A stretch of DNA of 64,000 nucleotides from assembly GCF_000020005.1 (NCBI RefSeq), contig NC_010718.1:1942001-2006000 (forward strand). Reading direction: 5' to 3'. Below, one piece after another: positions 3,017 to 26,132 of the stretch. Within the stretch, counting starts at the first letter, position 1. Each line of letters starts with the position of its first letter. The notes beneath the pieces were generated by a model. It ran no database searches, was not told where the DNA came from, and saw only the letters and a list, made by a program, of their open reading frames with translations. The translations under genes and the position numbers were made by a program. The stretch comes from Natranaerobius thermophilus JW/NM-WN-LF (GTDB taxonomy: Bacteria > Bacillota > Natranaerobiia > Natranaerobiales > Natranaerobiaceae).

Positions 3017-3706
3017 TTAATCTTGATTAGGAGTTTCAGGAGGATCAGGGTGTTCAGGACTTTCAGGGAAATCTAAAGGAAAATTATTTTCTTGTTCGTT
3101 TTCTTTGAATTCGCTTTCATCAAATTCTTTATTGTGGTTTGATTCTCCTGCCGATTCTTGTTTATTTGTTTGTTGTTCCTCATCGGGGAGTATGACATCA
3201 ACAATTCCCTCTTCCCCGTCATACTCTACGTAACCACCAAAGGCCTCACCAGTAAATCTAAAGGGTATGTATGTACGCCCTTTTATCAGCCGTGAGGAAA
3301 CATCTAGGTTTGTTCTATCCCCATTAATTATTGCTACATCCTCGCCTATTGGCAATGCCACCCTGTCTTTATTTCTTTGGGCATAAGCAACTTGTTTATC
3401 GCCGTCCCATTCCATAGTTGCACCGATAGCTTCAAAAACCGACCGGGCCGGCATTAAAATTCGTCCATCTTGCACTTTGATATCATTCTGCAACTTTATT
3501 TCTTTTTCGTTAACTGTTACTTTCAGATCATCAATTCTTTCATACTGCTGATCACTATCGTCATCAGCAGAGACAGATGAAGGGTGTTGAATTGTCAAAA
3601 CTAATCCTAAACTAAAAAATATGACAAACAATAAGCTAAAAAAACCGAACTGAGTAAAAACTGTTTTTTCCCTCTTGTTGTTTAGTATAATTTTAATATT
3701 ATCCAA
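3017..3706 (-). CDS. Secreted or anchored copper-amine-oxidase-N (stalk) domain protein
   Basis: 229 residues starting at TTG, with GAGGTGA just upstream. Residues 20-45 form one hydrophobic segment followed by small residues, either a signal peptide or an N-terminal anchor. Residues about 60-170 match the copper amine oxidase N-like domain common in Clostridia: a [20 protein letters not shown] segment, then [20 protein letters not shown]. The C-terminal 50 residues are acidic and rich in Pro, Glu and Asn, ending in repeated PE/PD units, and look disordered. The domain is a structural module of cell-surface proteins, not an enzyme. No catalytic domain is seen and the function is unknown. A related domain is fused to the amidase at 6250-6909. 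Confidence 0.75.
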
Positions 3707-3742
3707 AAGATCACCTCAACAAATAGGCAACTTTATTATTAA

Positions 3743-3819
3743 TTAAGATATACTGTCAAACCCACATAATCCGTACAATTTATAAGTTTTACAGTATCAA
3801 CAAATAAATATATAGCACC
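3743..3819 (+). repeat. Dispersed intergenic repeat, copy A
   Basis: This copy contains ATACTGTCAAACC, CATAATCCGTACAATT and TTTTACAGTATCAACAAATA in order. The same blocks recur at 11717, 19354, 49131 and, inverted, at 39300. ATACTGT and ACAGTAT at the ends of the core are inverted repeats and could close a hairpin. It is non-coding and lies between two minus-strand genes. Confidence 0.75.
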
Positions 3820-3851
3820 TAAAATTAAGTAAGATGCAACAAAATTCAGGG

Positions 3852-3947
3852 CTAGTCCACTAAATATGTAATAACTGCTATAATCGCAGCCCAACCTATA
3901 ATAAATAAAAACACATATAAAACTAATTGTAATAATCTCTTACTCAT
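3852..3947 (-). CDS. Small single-span membrane protein (31 aa)
   Basis: An ATG at 3947 follows a strong GGAGAGGAG site by 6 nt and opens a 31-codon frame. It starts MSKRLLQLVLYVFLF, continues through a Trp/Ala/Ile/Val-rich stretch and ends in LVD. A positively charged start followed by about 22 hydrophobic residues predicts one transmembrane helix with the N-terminus inside. I do not recognise a family. The frame sits alone in the 357-bp gap between the stalk protein and the MFS gene. The good ribosome site and clean hydrophobic profile support translation. Length alone would not. Confidence 0.55.
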   Translation of the reverse strand: MSKRLLQLVLYVFLFIIGWAAIIAVITYLVD

Positions 3948-4063
3948 AGTATCTCCTCTCCATTTATTATTTATTTATAACCACATCAGTTCCTCTGGAT
4001 AGGATCAGCCATCATATCTAATCTAAGATAAGGGTCACTCACTAGGGTCATGTCATTTATTCA

Positions 4064-5287
4064 TTAATTTGAGTTTGATAGGTTAAGTTCTCTCCCTATA
4101 CCAAATTTTATCATAATTAAATTAACACCCATAACAAGTATAGCAATTATCCCGGCAGTACCAAACATAGCAATCCTAGATATTTCAACTAACAGACCAA
4201 AAGCCGGTGGCCCAAAAGCCACTCCGAAGAACCTTACACTACCATATAAAGAAGTAACTCCACCCCTGGCCCTTCCAGACGCAGTGCTAGTTACTAGAGT
4301 ATTAACTGATGTTAAAACAAGACCAGTACCAACACCTATTAAAATTATACCAGCAAATAAAGCGTAATCATTATCCAACAATAAAATTATTCCGCCAAAA
4401 GAAAGCCCGATAATTGTCAAACCAGTTACAACCAATTTACTCATAAGTAATTTGGACTGAATGAAATGCCCTGTAGTGTAAGAAGTAACTGCCATGACAA
4501 TTACAGGAAGCGCTATAACTATTCCCTTAGGTGCTCCCTCTAAATTATATCTTATCTCTAAAATATCCGAAAGGTATGATAGAGTACCAAATAAAGAAAA
4601 TAATACAGTGAATCCCGCCAAATAAGTAGCTATTAATACCATCTTTTTATCTTTGAAAACATCAAAAATCCTGGTAAAATAACCTTTTTCTTCTTGACTA
4701 CTACCTCCTGCCTTTTGCTCTGGCTCTTTTAAAACCACCCATAACATGATAGCAACTGGCAAAGAAAATATAGTGTAAACAAAAAAAACTGAGTACCATA
4801 TCCAAACAACTATTATAGCACCTAAGATAGGACTTACAACCTTTCCTATACCATTAGCCGCTTCCAGAACCCCCATAGCCTCACTTCGTTCACCTGATTG
4901 AAATAAATCACCTGCTAAAGCCATAGCAATGGGACCAGTTCCACCAGCTCCTATTCCCTTTACAACTCTCCCAAAAATTATCCAGGGATAAGCGGAATTA
5001 AAAAATATAGGTGCAAAGCCACTTATTAAGCCTCCTATAGCATATAAAAAAACAGAAGGTACTAGTACTACTTTACGACCATATTTATCGGAAATAAAAC
5101 CAACAATAGGTATTGTAATCCCTGCTGCTATAGAAAAAGTTGTTACAAGCAATCCAACTTCAAGTTGTGTTAGATTGAGCTGATTTTGGATCTCAGGGAA
5201 TGCTGGAATAATTAAAGAGTTTCCCAGAACCATAATAAATGGCACTCCACTCAAAGCTGCTAAATATTTTTTTGTTTCCTGTTGCAT
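4064..5287 (-). CDS. MFS drug/efflux-type transporter
   Basis: 407 residues with about 12 hydrophobic segments. The loop 2-3 signature of the major facilitator superfamily is visible as GFISDKYGRKVVLV, and the region following has the GRVVKGIGAGGTGP pattern of proton-coupled exporters (motif C-like glycines near GIGKVVSPILG). This resembles the 12-TM drug:H+ antiporter group. The substrate cannot be told. A TTG at 5326 would add 13 residues, but it lacks a ribosome site. The ATG at 5287 has AGGAGAG about 10 nt upstream and is preferred. It appears to be a single-gene unit. Confidence 0.85.
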   Translation of the reverse strand: MQQETKKYLAALSGVPFIMVLGNSLIIPAFPEIQNQLNLTQLEVGLLVTTFSIAAGITIPIVGFISDKYGRKVVLVPSVFLYAIGGLISGFAPIFFNSAYPWIIFGRVVKGIGAGGTGPIAMALAGDLFQSGERSEAMGVLEAANGIGKVVSPILGAIIVVWIWYSVFFVYTIFSLPVAIMLWVVLKEPEQKAGGSSQEEKGYFTRIFDVFKDKKMVLIATYLAGFTVLFSLFGTLSYLSDILEIRYNLEGAPKGIVIALPVIVMAVTSYTTGHFIQSKLLMSKLVVTGLTIIGLSFGGIILLLDNDYALFAGIILIGVGTGLVLTSVNTLVTSTASGRARGGVTSLYGSVRFFGVAFGPPAFGLLVEISRIAMFGTAGIIAILVMGVNLIMIKFGIGRELNLSNSN

Positions 5288-5481
5288 TTTCTGCTCACTC
5301 TCCTGTATAATTGTAATGTATGTCAATTAGCGTCTATTTATATCCTTTATTGTAAAATTGCTTTTATACTTTTTATATCAGCTCAGAAAAAGGTAGATTT
5401 TTGCAGTTTAATTTTATTTTTTGCGATTTCCCAGTAAATAAAATCTAATCCTAAAAAAACAAATTTTTATTTATTATGCTC

Positions 5482-5510
5482 TTTACAAACAGTTTATTAT
5501 CTGCTATACT
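5482..5510 (+). promoter_or_regulatory. Sigma-A promoter of tRNA-Leu(UAA)
   Basis: TTTACA (5482-5487), a 17-nt spacer and TATACT (5505-5510), with an extended -10 TGC just before. The expected start is about 20 nt upstream of the tRNA. Confidence 0.85.
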
Positions 5511-5537
5511 TATTTACGTCGATGGGAGAGAAAACAT

Positions 5538-5629
5538 GCCGGGGTGGCGGAACTGGCAGACGCAAGGGACTTAAAATCCCTCGGACAATCAAATTGTCCG
5601 TACCGGTTCGATTCCGGTCCCCGGCACCA
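5538..5629 (+). tRNA. tRNA-Leu (anticodon UAA)
   Basis: A class II tRNA with a long variable arm. The acceptor GCCGGGG pairs with CCCCGGC, followed by A and an encoded CCA (5627-5629). The anticodon loop CTTAAAA at 5570-5576 gives UAA. The T-arm contains GGTTCGATTCC. It reads UUA/UUG leucine codons. Confidence 0.97.
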
Positions 5630-5640
5630 AAGCCCAAAAA

Positions 5641-5671
5641 AACCTCACTTAAAAAAGTGAGGTTTTTTTAT
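5641..5671 (+). terminator. Intrinsic terminator of tRNA-Leu
   Basis: AACCTCACTT and AAGTGAGGTT flank a short A-rich loop, followed by a T-run and TATT. It starts 12 nt after the tRNA end. Confidence 0.9.
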
Positions 5672-5729
5672 TATATATGACTTGTTTTACTAACATTATT
5701 TTTTGTGATCGTATTCCGTCTTATCCTGA

Positions 5730-6089
5730 TTATTTTGTATTTGGTGACACATCTTCATCTTTAACAATGACTTTATGAAAGAAGTATTCTCCTACAGCAA
5801 CCAAAATTCCAAATAAAATCAAAGAACCTATAGTTGTCTGGAAAACTGTCACTAAACTCACTACATAAGCCGCAACCAATCCAAGTACTCCATCTCCCAC
5901 CGAAGCGTAAATATTTCCGTACTCTGGTAAAATATATAAATCTCCAACAACATAGTTCAGTGCCGTAGCCAGGATAGCAAATCCAAATACCCACCCCCAT
6001 GGATTACCATCAAGGCCAATAAAGGCAACACTGGCAACGATAAAAGTCATTAAAAACTTGATGACTAATGCTGATAATGTATCATTCAT
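5730..6089 (-). CDS. DUF2512 (YndM-like) four-helix membrane protein
   Basis: 119 residues with four hydrophobic stretches. The motifs NYVVGDLYILPEYGN and SVGDGVLGL are characteristic of the DUF2512 family found in Bacilli and Clostridia, whose function is unknown. Starts at the ATG 6089 after GGGAGGAGAT. It is encoded alone, convergent with tRNA-Leu and downstream of the amidase terminator. Confidence 0.85.
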   Translation of the reverse strand: MNDTLSALVIKFLMTFIVASVAFIGLDGNPWGWVFGFAILATALNYVVGDLYILPEYGNIYASVGDGVLGLVAAYVVSLVTVFQTTIGSLILFGILVAVGEYFFHKVIVKDEDVSPNTK

Positions 6090-6191
6090 ATTTTATCTCC
6101 TCCCTTAATTTCTATGGATTTTGTCTAGTTTAATTTTTTAGAGTCCTCGATTATCCATTCATTACTATTATTTCCCTAATTTATACAAAAT

Positions 6192-6220
6192 AATCAAAAA
6201 AAGCACCATAATTGGTGCTT
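6192..6220 (-). terminator. Intrinsic terminator after the amidase gene
   Basis: AAGCACCA and TGGTGCTT form an 8-bp stem. On the minus strand it is followed by eight T residues. It lies 30 nt past the amidase stop. Confidence 0.88.
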
Positions 6221-6249
6221 AAACTAGTATTCCTAAATTAATAAAAAAG

Positions 6250-6909
6250 TTAGTTGTTACTGTTTTTTGTAACTTCAAATTCACCAAGACTACTGTCCCA
6301 GTTCACACTATATCCAAGTTGCTGTTCTACTACTTTACGCAAGGGAACATAAGTTTTGCCATCAATGAGAAACCCATCTGATACTTCCTCGTCTAATACA
6401 GTTCCCCTAACTTTTCGCTCTATTTCAGGTAACTCTCCTAATTCCTGTTCCTGTAAAGAGTTTCTTATTAAGTCTAAATCGGTATTTTCACCGGGACAAT
6501 TAGTAGATACCCAGTCGCTGTGTGAAAAAACGAGTAAATTTTTCGAGTAAATGCTATTCAACCATTTATGAATTTCAATAGCCTTTTGATACTGTTGTTC
6601 AGTTGGCTGGGATTCATTCATGTTACCAGAAAAAGCTATGCCTATAGTTTTTTGATTTGCATTCCCGCCTGAATGGGCACCTTGCTTCTCATGAGGTCGA
6701 CCTAACTCAATAGTACCATCACTACGTATTTGATAATGATAACCGACCATTTGCCAACCTCTAACATTTCTGTGGAATTCATCATGTCTGGTAATTGGTC
6801 GGTCTGAAACACCAGTATGATGATAAGTTATCCCAATTGTTTCTGGCCTTTCAGTCAATCCAGTTTTAGGCTCAAGATTATAATCTTTCACTTCTGGTTT
6901 ACTAACCAT
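6250..6909 (-). CDS. N-acetylmuramoyl-L-alanine amidase (Amidase_2/PGRP) with C-terminal stalk domain
   Basis: 219 residues. The first ~150 match the zinc amidase family: ITYHHTG near residue 30 gives the first Zn histidine, and HSDWVSTNCPGE near residue 130 gives the second histidine and the cysteine ligand. The GAHSGG and QKTIGIAFSGN segments are also typical. The last 45 residues (FLIDGKTYVPLRKVVEQ to the end) match half of a copper-amine-oxidase-N domain. The enzyme cleaves the lactyl-L-Ala bond of peptidoglycan. No signal peptide is visible, so export is uncertain, and a prophage or spore-related role is possible. Upstream ATGs overlap the ribosome site GAGGAG at 6919-6924, so the ATG at 6909 is chosen. 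Confidence 0.88.
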   Translation of the reverse strand: MVSKPEVKDYNLEPKTGLTERPETIGITYHHTGVSDRPITRHDEFHRNVRGWQMVGYHYQIRSDGTIELGRPHEKQGAHSGGNANQKTIGIAFSGNMNESQPTEQQYQKAIEIHKWLNSIYSKNLLVFSHSDWVSTNCPGENTDLDLIRNSLQEQELGELPEIERKVRGTVLDEEVSDGFLIDGKTYVPLRKVVEQQLGYSVNWDSSLGEFEVTKNSNN

Positions 6910-9141: not shown

Positions 9142-9417
9142 TGAAGGCGCTGTTATACTCCGTTATTGAGTAAATTGGATTAAACTCTAATCATTTAGAA
9201 AACAAAAAACTTGTAGTTTAAAAATTGATTATTTTCTCAAAAATTACGCCAATATCATTATTAAAATATCTTGATGTTCTATGTGACAAGTTTGGCACTG
9301 TTTAAGCAGGTCTTTTAATATATCCACTAACTCATCTTATTCAAAACTTTGGTAGTTTTAAGGGTAAATCGTTGTAAAACATTTTCTAGATTCTCGCGGA
9401 ATTCATGTATAAAATTT
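9142..9417. other. Intergenic region without a recognisable gene
   Basis: 276 bp between the convergent Mn catalase and DUF2225 genes. No ribosome site opens a credible frame on either strand. GCGCTGTTATACTCCGTTATTGA near 9150 resembles GCGATGTTTTACTCCG...TTGA near 51176 (21 of 23 positions), which may be a relic of a shared repeat. Confidence 0.4.
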
Positions 9418-11682: not shown

Positions 11683-11711
11683 AACCTCGGAGCTATAACT
11701 CCGAGGTTTTT
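11683..11711 (+). terminator. Intrinsic terminator of pssA
   Basis: AACCTCGGAG and CTCCGAGGTT form a perfect 10-bp stem followed by TTTTCATTT. Confidence 0.9.
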
Positions 11712-11787: not shown

Positions 11788-11931
11788 ACACTTATTGTTC
11801 AGAACACTGTGAAATTTTAATTTTCAATAAAACAACCCTTAAAAAGTATAATATAAAAAATATCATTGGAGAATTCTAAAAATAGCACTATAATAACTTA
11901 ACTTCTTAGAATTTAATTAGGAGTGAACGAA

Positions 11932-13410
11932 ATGAGTGGAATTGTTGCTATTAAAGGTACCCAAGCTTATAAAGATACTATGGTCAAAATGTTAGACAAA
12001 CTTAAACACCGAGGTCCTCAAAAACAAAATATATTTCCAAGCTATGCAAGCAATGTTTTGATCGGAGAATGTAATCTAGAATACGAATTGAGTAAAATTG
12101 ATGAAAGCCAAAATCCTATAGACAACAAAAATCACAATATTAATTTAGCACTAGATGGCGAACCCCTCATGGAAGGTAAGCGCCTATCAAGAAATGATTT
12201 AATTAAATTATTTCAAAGGGAAGGTCCTGAATTTGTAAAGTTTTTGGGAGATGGATTTGCTTTGATTTATACTGATGGCAAAGAACTCTATGCTGCAAGA
12301 GACATTTTTGGTAGAAGACCATTATATTACGGTCATGATTCTTCAAACAATATTTACTTTGCATCAGAAATGAAAGCTTTGACAGAAATATGTGAAGAAA
12401 TAAAAATTTTCCCTCCAGGTTATTATTATTCTCAAGATGATGGTTTTAACAAGTATACCAGTATACCTCATTTCGAATCAAATATTGATGAAGAACCAGG
12501 TTCTAAGGACTATTATGAAAAGTCTGCTCGGTTAAAGTATTTGTTAATTAAAGCAGTAGCCGACAGTTGGGAAACAGGCAAAGAGCCTGGCATTTTTTTG
12601 AGTGGAGGAGTTGATAGTTCAGTAGTAGCTGCAGCTTTAGCCAATTTAACTGATAAACCTATTCACACCTTCGCTGTAGGGATTGAGGACAGTGAAGATA
12701 TAAAAAATGCCGAAGAAGTTAGTCAATATCTTGGTACAGAACATACGGTTCTTACTTATACAGAAGAAGATATGTTTGAAGTGTTACCAGAGGTGATTTA
12801 CTATCTTGAATCCTTTGATGTTGAGCTTGTTAACAGTTCTATTGCCAATTATTTGGTCTCGAAACTCGCAAAATCTAATAATTTTGAAATCACACTATCA
12901 GGTGAAGGTGCTGATGAACTTTTTGGGGGATATCATCATTTAAAAGATTGTAAAAGTGATGAACAGTTAAATGAAGCTTTAGAAGGATTATTGAAAGGTT
13001 TACATAATGGTGGATTGCAAAGAGTTGATCGAATGACAAATGCTCATTCATTAAATTGTCGAATGCCTTTCTTACACTCTTATATCATAAATTACGCCCT
13101 AAAGATCCCCTGTGATTGGAAAATTTCAGGAAATGGTATGGAAAAACTAATTTTACGTCAGGCCTTTGATGGAGACTTACCTGAGCAGGTTTTATGGCGC
13201 AAAAAAGCCCAGTTTGGCATTGGATCAGGAAACGAAAAAGCTATGGAAAAAATCATAGACTCGGAAATCACTGACCAAGAATATTATGATAACAAAGAAA
13301 AACACGGAATTGATTTTAAATCAAAAGAAGAATATTTCTATTTTAAAATTTTTCATAAATTTTTTCCCGAAAAATCTCAAACTAAAACTGTCAACCGCTG
13401 GTTAGTGTAA
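11932..13410 (+). CDS. Asparagine synthetase B-like amidotransferase without the catalytic cysteine
   Basis: 492 residues. The layout is an N-terminal Ntn-glutaminase domain (1 to about 190) and a C-terminal synthetase domain with the pyrophosphate loop SGGVDSS at 224-230 and the SGEGADELFGGY motif. Residue 2, where AsnB has the nucleophile Cys, is Ser (MSGIVAI). The glutamine-site NGE is DGE, and RGPD is RGPQ. Asparagine synthesis or another amide/lactam-forming reaction using free ammonia is therefore more likely than glutamine use. The ammonia-releasing lysine fermentation nearby would fit. The start is the ATG at 11932, 8 nt after TAGGAG. A GTG at 11923 overlaps the spacer. A single gene between terminators. 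Confidence 0.85.
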   Translation: MSGIVAIKGTQAYKDTMVKMLDKLKHRGPQKQNIFPSYASNVLIGECNLEYELSKIDESQNPIDNKNHNINLALDGEPLMEGKRLSRNDLIKLFQREGPEFVKFLGDGFALIYTDGKELYAARDIFGRRPLYYGHDSSNNIYFASEMKALTEICEEIKIFPPGYYYSQDDGFNKYTSIPHFESNIDEEPGSKDYYEKSARLKYLLIKAVADSWETGKEPGIFLSGGVDSSVVAAALANLTDKPIHTFAVGIEDSEDIKNAEEVSQYLGTEHTVLTYTEEDMFEVLPEVIYYLESFDVELVNSSIANYLVSKLAKSNNFEITLSGEGADELFGGYHHLKDCKSDEQLNEALEGLLKGLHNGGLQRVDRMTNAHSLNCRMPFLHSYIINYALKIPCDWKISGNGMEKLILRQAFDGDLPEQVLWRKKAQFGIGSGNEKAMEKIIDSEITDQEYYDNKEKHGIDFKSKEEYFYFKIFHKFFPEKSQTKTVNRWLV

Positions 13411-13438: not shown

Positions 13439-13488
13439 AAAAAAGGACAGTGAATCTATGTATCTTTGATTCACTGTCCTTTTTTTAT
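13439..13488. terminator. Bidirectional intrinsic terminator
   Basis: AAAAAGGACAGTGAATC and GATTCACTGTCCTTTTT form a long perfect stem with a T-run on the plus side and an A-run on the other. It serves both the AsnB-like gene and the UPF0180 gene. Confidence 0.9.
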
Positions 13489-24030: not shown

Positions 24031-26132
24031 ATCGAGTAGGTAGAAGCCACAGTAATTAGCTGTGGCTTCGTTCCTCTCACAGAACCGTGCTTACGGGCCA
24101 CGTACACGGCTCCTAGTAGACCTCGATCACTTTCTAAAGTGATGCAAAATACCAACTTGATAGGTACTAATATTAATTAGACCTATCTCGTCAAACCACT
24201 TATTGGGTAGTGCTAAACTTATGAGAGGACTTGATGAGTTTCTCCATTTATTCATGGAGATTTTCTCAAATTCCCCTTTGTAGCCTTTTCTGCGAAGAGT
24301 TTTGTGTAGTTGTTTCCAACTTTTCCATTCTCGCATTTTCTTCATCCTAAGTCTTCTTCTAATCCATTTCATTAAGTTCTCAAATTGTTTCTTACAATTG
24401 GCTATTCGGAAGTAATTTGCCCATCCTCTTAATACTGGATTTAGCTCTTTTATGATTTCGGATAGATTTCTACCATGATTTCTTGGTGTAAGAGTTCTGA
24501 CTTTTTCTTTGAATTTCTGTATCTTTTCAGGCTGGATGGATATGTTTTGACTCCTTATGATAACTCCTAGGTAGGGAACACCTTTGCGGTCATTTGTTAT
24601 GTGAGTTTTCTCTTTATTAACTGTTAGTTTTAATTCGTCTTCTAATATTTCAGTAGCTATATCTTTATATCTTTTCGCTTGTCTTGGTGTGTAGGCGAAT
24701 ATTAAAATATCATCGGCATATCTTACTATTCGGATATTGCGACTCTTCATTTCTTTATCAAATCTGTCTAGGTAAATGTTGGTTAGTAGTGGTGATATCA
24801 CTCCACCTTGAGGGCTCCCTATTTCTGTGTCTTCTATGGCTCCATCTTCCATTACTCCGGACTTCAAAAACTTCTTTATTAATTTGAGAACACTTCCATC
24901 ACTAACTTTCTTGGCTACTTCTTCGATAATCAACTCATGGTTTAATTTATCAAAGCATTTAGATAGGTCCATATCTACTACATGTCTTAGATTGTATTTA
25001 TTAATGAACTGTTCTGATTTAGCTATTGCTTTGTGACATGAGCGATTAGGCCTGTATCCGTAGCTTGACGGGTGGAAGTCTGGATCAAAAATCGGTTGAA
25101 GTATATTTAAGGTTGCTTGTTGGACTACCCTGTCTTTTACGGTTGGAATCCCTAATGGGCGAGTACTTCCATCTGGTTTGGGTATCTTAACTCGCCTCAC
25201 AGGTTGTGGTTTGTATGCGCCAATTTTAAGGTCATGATGAAGGGTTTCCAGATTTTCTTCTAGGTTGGAGCCATAAGCCTCCACGGTTACCTGGTCTATG
25301 CCGGGTTTACCTTTGTTAGCTCTGACCCTGCGGTAGGCGTCTTCTAGATTCTTTTTGGAATAAATCTTGTCTATTAAACTGTACCATTTCTTCATCAATT
25401 GCACCTTCTTTCGCTGTGTGCCTTCCCTCTTTCTACACTTTTAGTTGTGGTTTCTTTGAACGTGCTTAACGGTGTCTCTAGCTCTTTGGCAATCTTACCT
25501 ATCAGGGTACGCTCTACTTCCACTAGGCGGACGGTAAAGCAAGTAAGCTCGTCACCACCTGACTTTCCGTTCCCTTTAGCATTTCAGCTTCAGTTTTCTT
25601 CCTACCTAAAGTGTCTACTCGAGTTCTTGCTACACTCTTTGGTCTACTTTCACCCCTTCACACTACATAATTCCCCTTTCGGTCATTATGCACCACTACA
25701 ACCAGGTGTAGTGTCCTTTCGGTTTTATCCTCCAGACTGTTACCAGCTTTCTTTGGCCGAAAGTTCTTCACTACTACGGGTTCATCTGCCTCCTGCACTG
25801 CTTTAGTTAAAACTCATGTTTCCACTTGTCTTAACTTTACTTGTCGTCACAAGACAATACAGGTATCTCCCCGGTTAAGTCTGCTTGCCTGAATTTGAAC
25901 GCATCCGTCCTAACCTTTTAGGTTATCCAGCTTTCGGGCTTTCCCATAATTTGCAAGGTTACCCACCTAAAAGGCCATCCTCGGTTTGTTCTCACTATGT
26001 TCCAAATTCCCCCTTCAGCTTCCTTCAGACTCCACCGTCACCGGTGACGCCCTTGCCTTATGGTTGTCTTCCTGCTGGTTAGGTGACAGGGTTTCTTTCA
26101 ACCCATCGGCGCGGCAGGCATGCCGGGCAAAC
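24031..26132 (-). mobile_element. Group II intron 1 (probable class IIC)
   Basis: The 5' end reads GTTTGCCCGGCATGCCTG at 26132 downward and the 3' end ...CCTACTCGAT at 24031, about 2.1 kb. Near the 3' end, domain V (24081-24112, GAGCCGTG...GGTTCT) and domain VI (24043-24069, stem GAAGCCACAG/CTGTGGCTTC) are visible. It encodes a reverse transcriptase. Its 5' end is 5 nt after the terminator stem of the etfA operon. Insertion behind a terminator and an RT without endonuclease domain are hallmarks of class IIC. GTTTG differs from the usual GTGYG, so the exact 5' boundary may be off or the intron weakened. Confidence 0.85.
24127..25395 (-). CDS. ltrA: Group II intron reverse transcriptase/maturase (intron 1)
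   Basis: 422 residues. Fingers-palm domain with RRVKIPKPDGSTRPLGIPTV, FHPSSYGYRPNRSCHKAI, GSPQGGVISPLL and the catalytic RYADDILIF. The maturase X domain follows (NPVLRGWANYFRIANC...) and the protein ends without the HNH endonuclease domain. It reverse-transcribes and helps splice its host intron. The ATG at 25395 stands 8 nt after AGAAGG. A GTG 9 nt earlier is an alternative. All catalytic motifs are intact. It is quite different in sequence from the RT of intron 2. Confidence 0.94.
   Translation of the reverse strand: MKKWYSLIDKIYSKKNLEDAYRRVRANKGKPGIDQVTVEAYGSNLEENLETLHHDLKIGAYKPQPVRRVKIPKPDGSTRPLGIPTVKDRVVQQATLNILQPIFDPDFHPSSYGYRPNRSCHKAIAKSEQFINKYNLRHVVDMDLSKCFDKLNHELIIEEVAKKVSDGSVLKLIKKFLKSGVMEDGAIEDTEIGSPQGGVISPLLTNIYLDRFDKEMKSRNIRIVRYADDILIFAYTPRQAKRYKDIATEILEDELKLTVNKEKTHITNDRKGVPYLGVIIRSQNISIQPEKIQKFKEKVRTLTPRNHGRNLSEIIKELNPVLRGWANYFRIANCKKQFENLMKWIRRRLRMKKMREWKSWKQLHKTLRRKGYKGEFEKISMNKWRNSSSPLISLALPNKWFDEIGLINISTYQVGILHHFRK

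Follow-up and report, generated by a model that had tools for sequence, protein, structure and literature searches.

The window analysed here, a stretch of 64,000 nucleotides from the Natranaerobius thermophilus genome, carries on its forward strand an open frame of 492 codons (11932-13410, stop included) that begins ATG AGT GGA and encodes a glutaminase-dead AsnB-like protein of 492 amino acids, with MSGIVAI at residues 1-7 and with matches to the Pfam domains Asn_synthase (5.4e-66) and GATase_7 (1.8e-11). A Shine-Dalgarno-like AGGAG (about 11919-11923, +) lies 8 nt 5' of the ATG at 11932, and an in-frame TAA (11914-11916, +) closes the frame upstream, the complete open frame amounting to 497 amino acids. 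A sequence-only reading of this locus had described the frame, its coordinates and its N-terminus as they are found here, and had considered that a true start further upstream might restore a normal Cys2. Such a start is excluded by the sequence of the window, since beyond the TAA at 11914-11916 there is nothing to extend into and the sole alternative in-frame start, a GTG at 11923 three codons upstream, would read MNEMSG and not MC, so that no start can supply Cys2. A terminator-like hairpin (11683-11708, +) follows the upstream CDP-alcohol phosphatidyltransferase gene and parts it from the AsnB-like gene, while an 18-bp perfect inverted repeat with a T tail, likewise terminator-like, lies 3' of the coding sequence (13439-13485, without assigned strand). 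With such hairpins on both flanks the gene looks monocistronic. Its neighbours in the window encode the CDP-alcohol phosphatidyltransferase, a UPF0180 protein, a CorC-like domain, a 2'-5' RNA ligase and a DUF2225 protein, none of which offers a pathway link, and no biosynthetic cluster surrounds the gene.

In the glutaminase half the catalytic N-terminal cysteine is replaced by serine (Ser2, AGT, 11935-11937, +), as the sequence-only reading had observed. That reading also listed changes of RGPD to RGPQ and of NGE to DGE; both are seen, the first in HRGPQ (residues 26-30; 12007-12021, +) where relatives have HRGPD, the second in ALDGEP (residues 73-78; 12148-12165, +), where Asn74 of the NGE glutamine-site motif has become Asp, but the list understated the change, the arginine of HxRLSI (Arg48) and the aspartate of SDxE (Asp96) being lost as well (site residues are numbered as in human ASNS, after PMC6748925). 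At Arg48, Asn74, Glu76 and Asp96 the window protein has Asn, Asp, Glu and Ser, respectively, so that Glu76 alone of the four is kept. A comparison of residue 2 across close relatives, which the same reading had proposed, found Ser2 in a 56% identical paralogue (L009:7490-8935), in the two homologues that the sister genome G001 encodes (L013 and L020) and in a 49% identical relative from genome G369 (L136). Together with the window protein these form a clade of five with 100/100 support, in all members of which the whole reading frame is kept. Since Ser2 is common to the paralogue, to both G001 homologues and to the G369 relative, it is neither a sequencing error nor a product of chance but an ancestral, long-fixed state. 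Of the two domains, the glutaminase has diverged the faster: between the window protein and its closest G001 homologue the identity is 46% in the glutaminase and 74% in the synthetase domain, and dN is 0.47 versus 0.18, with dS saturated. In three gene pairs that no Cys2 loss separates (L016/L017, L022/L024, L038/L052) the two domains differ little in this respect.

The AsnB-type synthetase half has all of its catalytic residues. The SGGVDSS pyrophosphate loop (residues 224-230; 12601-12621, +) and SGEGADELFGGY (residues 323-334; 12898-12933, +), which contains Ser362, Glu364 and Asp367 of the synthetase site (numbering after PMC6748925), had both been called intact from the sequence, and both were found so and in place. 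HNGGLQRVDR (13003-13032, +) retains Arg403 and Asp405, and WRKKAQF (13195-13215, +) the catalytic Lys466, so that the complete set of SGGxDSS, Glu364, Asp367, Arg403 and Lys466 is present. The acceptor site is altered at two positions. In ELVNSS (12823-12840, +) the Arg339 of human ASNS (Arg325 in E. coli) is replaced by Asn, a change specific to the five-member clade of the window protein, and in HNGGLQRVDR the position of human Asp400 is occupied by Gly. Human Asp400 belongs, with Glu364 and Asp367, to the modelled acceptor/inhibitor pocket and is networked with Arg403 (PMC6748925). The absence of Arg339 and of Asn/Asp400 from this clade lowers the likelihood of L-Asp as the acceptor without excluding it, given that genuine asparagine synthetases may vary here. 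Furthermore, Glu414 at the domain interface is changed to Asn or Asp in the four Natranaerobiaceae members of the clade.

Family models place the protein close to asparagine synthetases. It passes TIGR01536 (glutamine-hydrolysing asparagine synthase) with 281.7 bits against a cut-off of 267.1, but does not reach the narrower PRK09431 "asparagine synthase B" (396.6 versus 499), the lasso-peptide cyclase model NF033535 (114.9 versus 525 bits) or the model of the N-acetylglutaminylglutamine (NAGGN) amidotransferase, TIGR03104 (138.3 versus 570.1 bits). By sequence, E. coli AsnB and human ASNS are the nearest of the solved structures; the E-values are 6e-63 for AsnB, 6e-12 for beta-lactam synthetase (BLS) and 7e-18 for carbapenam synthetase (CarA). 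An AlphaFold2 model built from a 29-sequence alignment (mean pLDDT 89.9) superposes best on 1CT9 (E. coli AsnB, TM 0.87), followed by human ASNS (0.83-0.85) and by BLS and CarA (0.67-0.73, BLS about 0.71). Since the model orders both domains and matches 1CT9, the glutaminase domain, although dead, is predicted to be still folded. The window protein thus shares with E. coli AsnB and human ASNS the two domains, the fold, SGGxDSS, SGEGADE, Arg403 and Lys466, but it differs from them in lacking Cys2, Arg48, Asn74 and Asp96 and in having Gly400, Asn339 and Asn414, and its identity to them is about 28%. "Glutamine-hydrolysing AsnB" is not an acceptable label, since two defining features of this class, Cys2 and the set of glutamine-binding residues, are not found in the window protein.

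BLS and CarA are AsnB-type enzymes that work without glutamine. They resemble the window protein in this independence and in their fold, but they are far more distant in sequence than AsnB, and their antibiotic clusters are absent around the window gene; neither by sequence nor by fold are they its closest relationship. AsnH of Lactobacillus casei and LtsA of Rhodococcus are AsnB homologues whose acceptor is a cell-wall component and not free aspartate (PMC3885529); unlike the window protein, they retain Cys2 and the glutamine pocket, need glutamine and are about 630 amino acids long rather than 492. The NAGGN amidotransferase is likewise AsnB-like and is linked to an osmolyte, to judge by the title of Sagot et al. 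(2010) as cited in PMC13060819, but the window protein lies far below the cut-off of its model. AsnA would share with the window protein the proposed use of ammonia as nitrogen source, although its fold is unrelated. AsnB homologues with other acceptors or amines include, in addition to AsnH/LtsA, the nitrile synthetase PesC (PMC13060819) as well as TsnB9 and FzmA (PMC6133997). By the tests made, the window protein is a member of none of the BLS, CarA, AsnH/LtsA, PesC, TsnB9 and FzmA groups; it would work in the manner of an AsnB synthetase domain.

Relatives gathered from 80 named genome loci and 398 phylum genomes provided 123 sequences with a readable N-terminus, 79 of them with Cys2 and 44 without (28 Ser, 11 Ala, 4 Gly and 1 Tyr), a ratio that is no natural frequency since the query itself is Cys-less and biased the sampling to such forms. 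Arg48, Asn74, Glu76 and Asp96 are invariant in all 79 Cys2 relatives; among the 44 Cys-less sequences Arg48 is kept in three, Asn74 in two and Asp96 in 13, while Glu364, Asp367, Arg403, Lys466 and the serine of the pyrophosphate loop are the same in every one of the 44. A laboratory exchange of Cys2 for Ser in AsnH, the homologue from L. casei, abolishes glutaminase activity (PMC3885529). Because the loss of the glutamine pocket is both extensive and conserved, and in view of this result, a use of glutamine by the window protein is almost certainly excluded. The well-supported branches of a tree of 78 synthetase domains force at least six independent losses of Cys2. The clearest is seen in a syntenic pair, in which Thermoanaerobacter thermocopriae (L021) has Cys2 and an intact pocket and Caldanaerobacter subterraneus (L023) has Ala2 and a lost pocket, the upstream neighbours of the two genes being 80 and 88% identical. 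The Cys-less relatives come from Bacillota, Actinomycetota, Chloroflexota, Pseudomonadota, Desulfobacterota and other phyla, as well as from one archaeal MAG. The sequence-only reading had regarded ammonia dependence as possible in a cell that releases much ammonia; the Cys-less trait is also seen in organisms of quite different lifestyles, such as Arthrobacter and Brevibacterium. Position 400 is Asn or Asp in 79 of 79 Cys2 enzymes but Gly, Ala or Thr in 40 of the 44 Cys-less ones, with L023 and L131, two single-lineage losses, among the exceptions. Since the sequences are related, these raw counts overstate the coupling: on the tree, four of the six independent losses carry the change at position 400 and none shows the reverse, which with so few events gives a non-significant sign test (p = 0.125). 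Loss of the glutaminase thus appears to go together with a remodelling of the acceptor side, and for this reason the name "ammonia-dependent asparagine synthetase" is not simply adopted here.

Three linkages recur near the relatives, in Cys2 and Cys-less members alike. The first is to OpuC-type betaine/osmoprotectant ABC transporters: in L142 and L143 the AsnB-like gene is preceded, at a distance of about 80 bp and in the same orientation, by the gene of an OpuC-type binding protein, and in L140 likewise by a lone binding-protein gene; in L136, which is the nearest relative from outside the family, an OpuC-type operon diverges 200 bp away. The same linkage is found in L026 and L097 (Actinomycetota) as well as near the Cys2 members L051 and L079. 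The second linkage is to an MTTB-type corrinoid methyltransferase together with a corrinoid protein (Cys-less L129, L135 and L140; Cys2 L031 and L035), with L096 having MTTB but no corrinoid protein near its AsnB-like gene. In the third, an opine-dehydrogenase-like gene is followed by a B12-binding/MutE-like gene (Cys2 L021, L127 and L139; Cys-less L023, L028 and L131); this group, AsnB-like gene included, is present in several Bacillota (e.g. L021:2170-6458 and L023:2172-6479) and, in inverted order, in one archaeal MAG (L093). A planctomycete MAG (L048), which to judge by the GSL in its isolate name may come from Great Salt Lake, has an Ala2 gene (3482-4972) and a Cys2 gene (5001-6521) in the same orientation, separated by 28 bp, and MTTB 1.4 kb upstream of them; the adjacency of the two copies suggests that they are non-redundant. 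None of the OpuC-type, MTTB/corrinoid or opine-dehydrogenase/MutE neighbours lies beside the window gene. The N. thermophilus genome contains neither MTTB nor a full-length MutE-like protein; it has 14 matches to PF04069 (OpuAC-type binding proteins), none of them seen beside the window gene. This number is unusually high, as expected of a halophile, and at least one of the places has internal stops.

Six genes of the AsnB-like superfamily are found in the N. thermophilus genome. The 56% identical short paralogue (C2:467489) likewise has Ser2, and two short Ser2 paralogues are retained in each of the two family genomes, that of the window and G001. The sole short Cys2 paralogue is broken (L010:8030-9524; C2:2055029-2056515), with an in-frame TAG at the Ser codon of SGEGADE and a frameshift further on. 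Two intact long Cys2 AsnB homologues lie side by side (L011:5197-9110) and adjoin a glutamine synthetase gene (glnA at 9316). A further long AsnB-like gene (L012:5911-7773, +; 620 aa) has Ser2 (MSGLAGV) and degraded glutamine-site motifs and, being of the B. subtilis-AsnB-like type, would stand for a loss of its own. Whether another AsnA or AsnB exists had been raised by the sequence-only reading; these two long homologues answer for AsnB, and for AsnA there is no PF03590 match anywhere in the genome, the window protein matching PF00733 instead. AsnRS is also missing, no match in the genome exceeding the model cut-off and three sub-cut-off matches at two places resembling AspRS and LysRS, while GatB is present. 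Asn-tRNA is thus presumably made only by transamidation of Asp-tRNA, so that free asparagine would not be required for translation. AsnRS is missing in eight of the nine genomes of the wider subclade of the window protein, and the association with Cys2 loss is confined to this subclade: across all sampled genomes there is no link, Cys-less carriers being split roughly half and half.

The window protein is probably a synthetase in which a glutaminase-dead but folded N-terminal domain accompanies an active synthetase domain that forms an amide from an aspartate-like carboxylate and an amine not derived from glutamine. ATP-Mg would be bound in the SGGVDSS loop, the side-chain carboxylate of the acceptor would be adenylated, and the acyl-adenylate would be attacked by the amine, most likely free NH3, to give the amide, AMP and PPi; for the window protein we infer the activity, the nucleophile and the acceptor from the conserved residues. 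At pH 9.5 and 53 °C a large share of ammonium is present as NH3. These values are the growth optimum of N. thermophilus (PMC3817357) and fit a use of NH3, but prove nothing, since Cys-less enzymes are found in organisms from other habitats as well. Human ASNS has a kcat of 0.59 per s with ammonia and of 0.49 per s with glutamine (PMC11615228), so that free NH3 suffices for this half of an AsnB-type enzyme. Three features, namely the loss of Arg339, the Gly at position 400 and a translation that does without free asparagine, make a modified acceptor, or one that resembles aspartate, somewhat more likely in our judgement than plain L-Asp. The sequence-only reading had suggested an ammonia-dependent asparagine synthetase or an enzyme making another amide or lactam. 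The independence of glutamine is well supported by the lost pocket, the invariant synthetase residues and the AsnH mutant, but asparagine as the product is doubtful in view of the missing AsnRS, the presence of GatB, Asn339, Gly400 and the two long Cys2 AsnB homologues.

That the enzyme is a plain ammonia-dependent asparagine synthetase (L-Asp + ATP + NH3 -> L-Asn), which would be a sub-case of the synthetase proposed above, is quite possible, though on balance we lean away from it. True AsnB enzymes are its closest relatives in fold and sequence, TIGR01536 is passed, the Asp site retains Glu364, Asp367 and Arg403, and the genome is without AsnA; yet two residues of the acceptor site are changed, asparagine is not charged directly here or in most of the subclade, two long Cys2 homologues are at hand, and both family genomes retain two short Ser2 paralogues. 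Rather unlikely, in our view, is a ligase or cyclase with an amine substrate that is not ammonia, comparable to BLS and CarA or to the hydroxylamine- and hydrazine-transferring homologues; a glutaminase would have become superfluous to such an enzyme, and its pocket would have widened at position 400. This reading would agree with the changes at position 400, which accompany four of the six losses of Cys2, with the existence of homologues that take other amines, such as TsnB9 and FzmA (PMC6133997), and with the TM of 0.71 to BLS, but AsnB is far closer than BLS in both sequence and fold, the window gene has no surrounding biosynthetic cluster and a sign test of the independent pairs falls short of significance. 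N-terminal Ser occurs in place of Cys in many of the relatives (28 of 44, the commonest replacement). Ser is also the N-terminal nucleophile in some other Ntn hydrolases. That Ser2 serves as such a nucleophile in an enzyme with remaining glutaminase, or other Ntn amidase, activity is nevertheless very improbable: 16 of the 44 Cys-less relatives have Ala, Gly or Tyr at the site, Arg48, Asn74 and Asp96 are gone from the window protein, and the glutaminase of AsnH is killed by the same exchange (PMC3885529). Furthermore, L140, L142 and L143 have two extra residues ahead of the Ser or Gly that replaces Cys2 (MPSLGG, VASLSG and MIPLSG), which would be incompatible with an N-terminal nucleophile. 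A decaying, non-functional gene, as might be suspected from the broken Cys2 paralogue and the faster evolution of the glutaminase domain, is scarcely credible against five homologues with open frames and intact synthetase motifs, a synthetase dN of 0.18 at saturated dS, two Ser2 copies kept in both family genomes and a terminator of its own.

For the glutamine-independent synthetase preferred here, the relatives point to an unrecognised amide product beside betaine transport and corrinoid methyltransferase genes. It is possible, and we suggest it only tentatively, that the Cys-less AsnB-like branch comprises distinct, widespread glutamine-independent amide synthetases, in which a coupled change of Asn/Asp400 to Gly/Ala in the acceptor pocket accompanies the loss of the glutaminase and which serve a betaine- or methylamine-linked metabolism, either amidating an amino acid that is N-methylated or modified in another way, or using a non-ammonia amine, and that in Natranaerobius they take part in osmolyte chemistry. 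The Cys-less group is widespread and repeatedly evolved, and by its score against the curated model it is probably mislabelled, as such proteins can pass the NCBI "glutamine-hydrolyzing asparagine synthase" model though they would be unable to hydrolyse glutamine. A literature search, mostly without subscription journals, found no description of a natural Cys-less AsnB branch, and an earlier description is possible. The repeated, independent losses of the glutaminase, among them that in the Cys2/Ala2 pair of Thermoanaerobacter and Caldanaerobacter, form a natural series in which the coupling of the two active sites of an amidotransferase can be put to a direct test.

Two minor observations concern other parts of the genome. 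An open reading frame on the reverse strand of the window (24127-25404, -) resembles, judged by its sequence, a group II intron reverse transcriptase and would lie inside a fatty-acid/butyrate-type gene cluster, and the record of the 8,689 bp plasmid of N. thermophilus carries a gene annotated as iscB (RNA-guided endonuclease).
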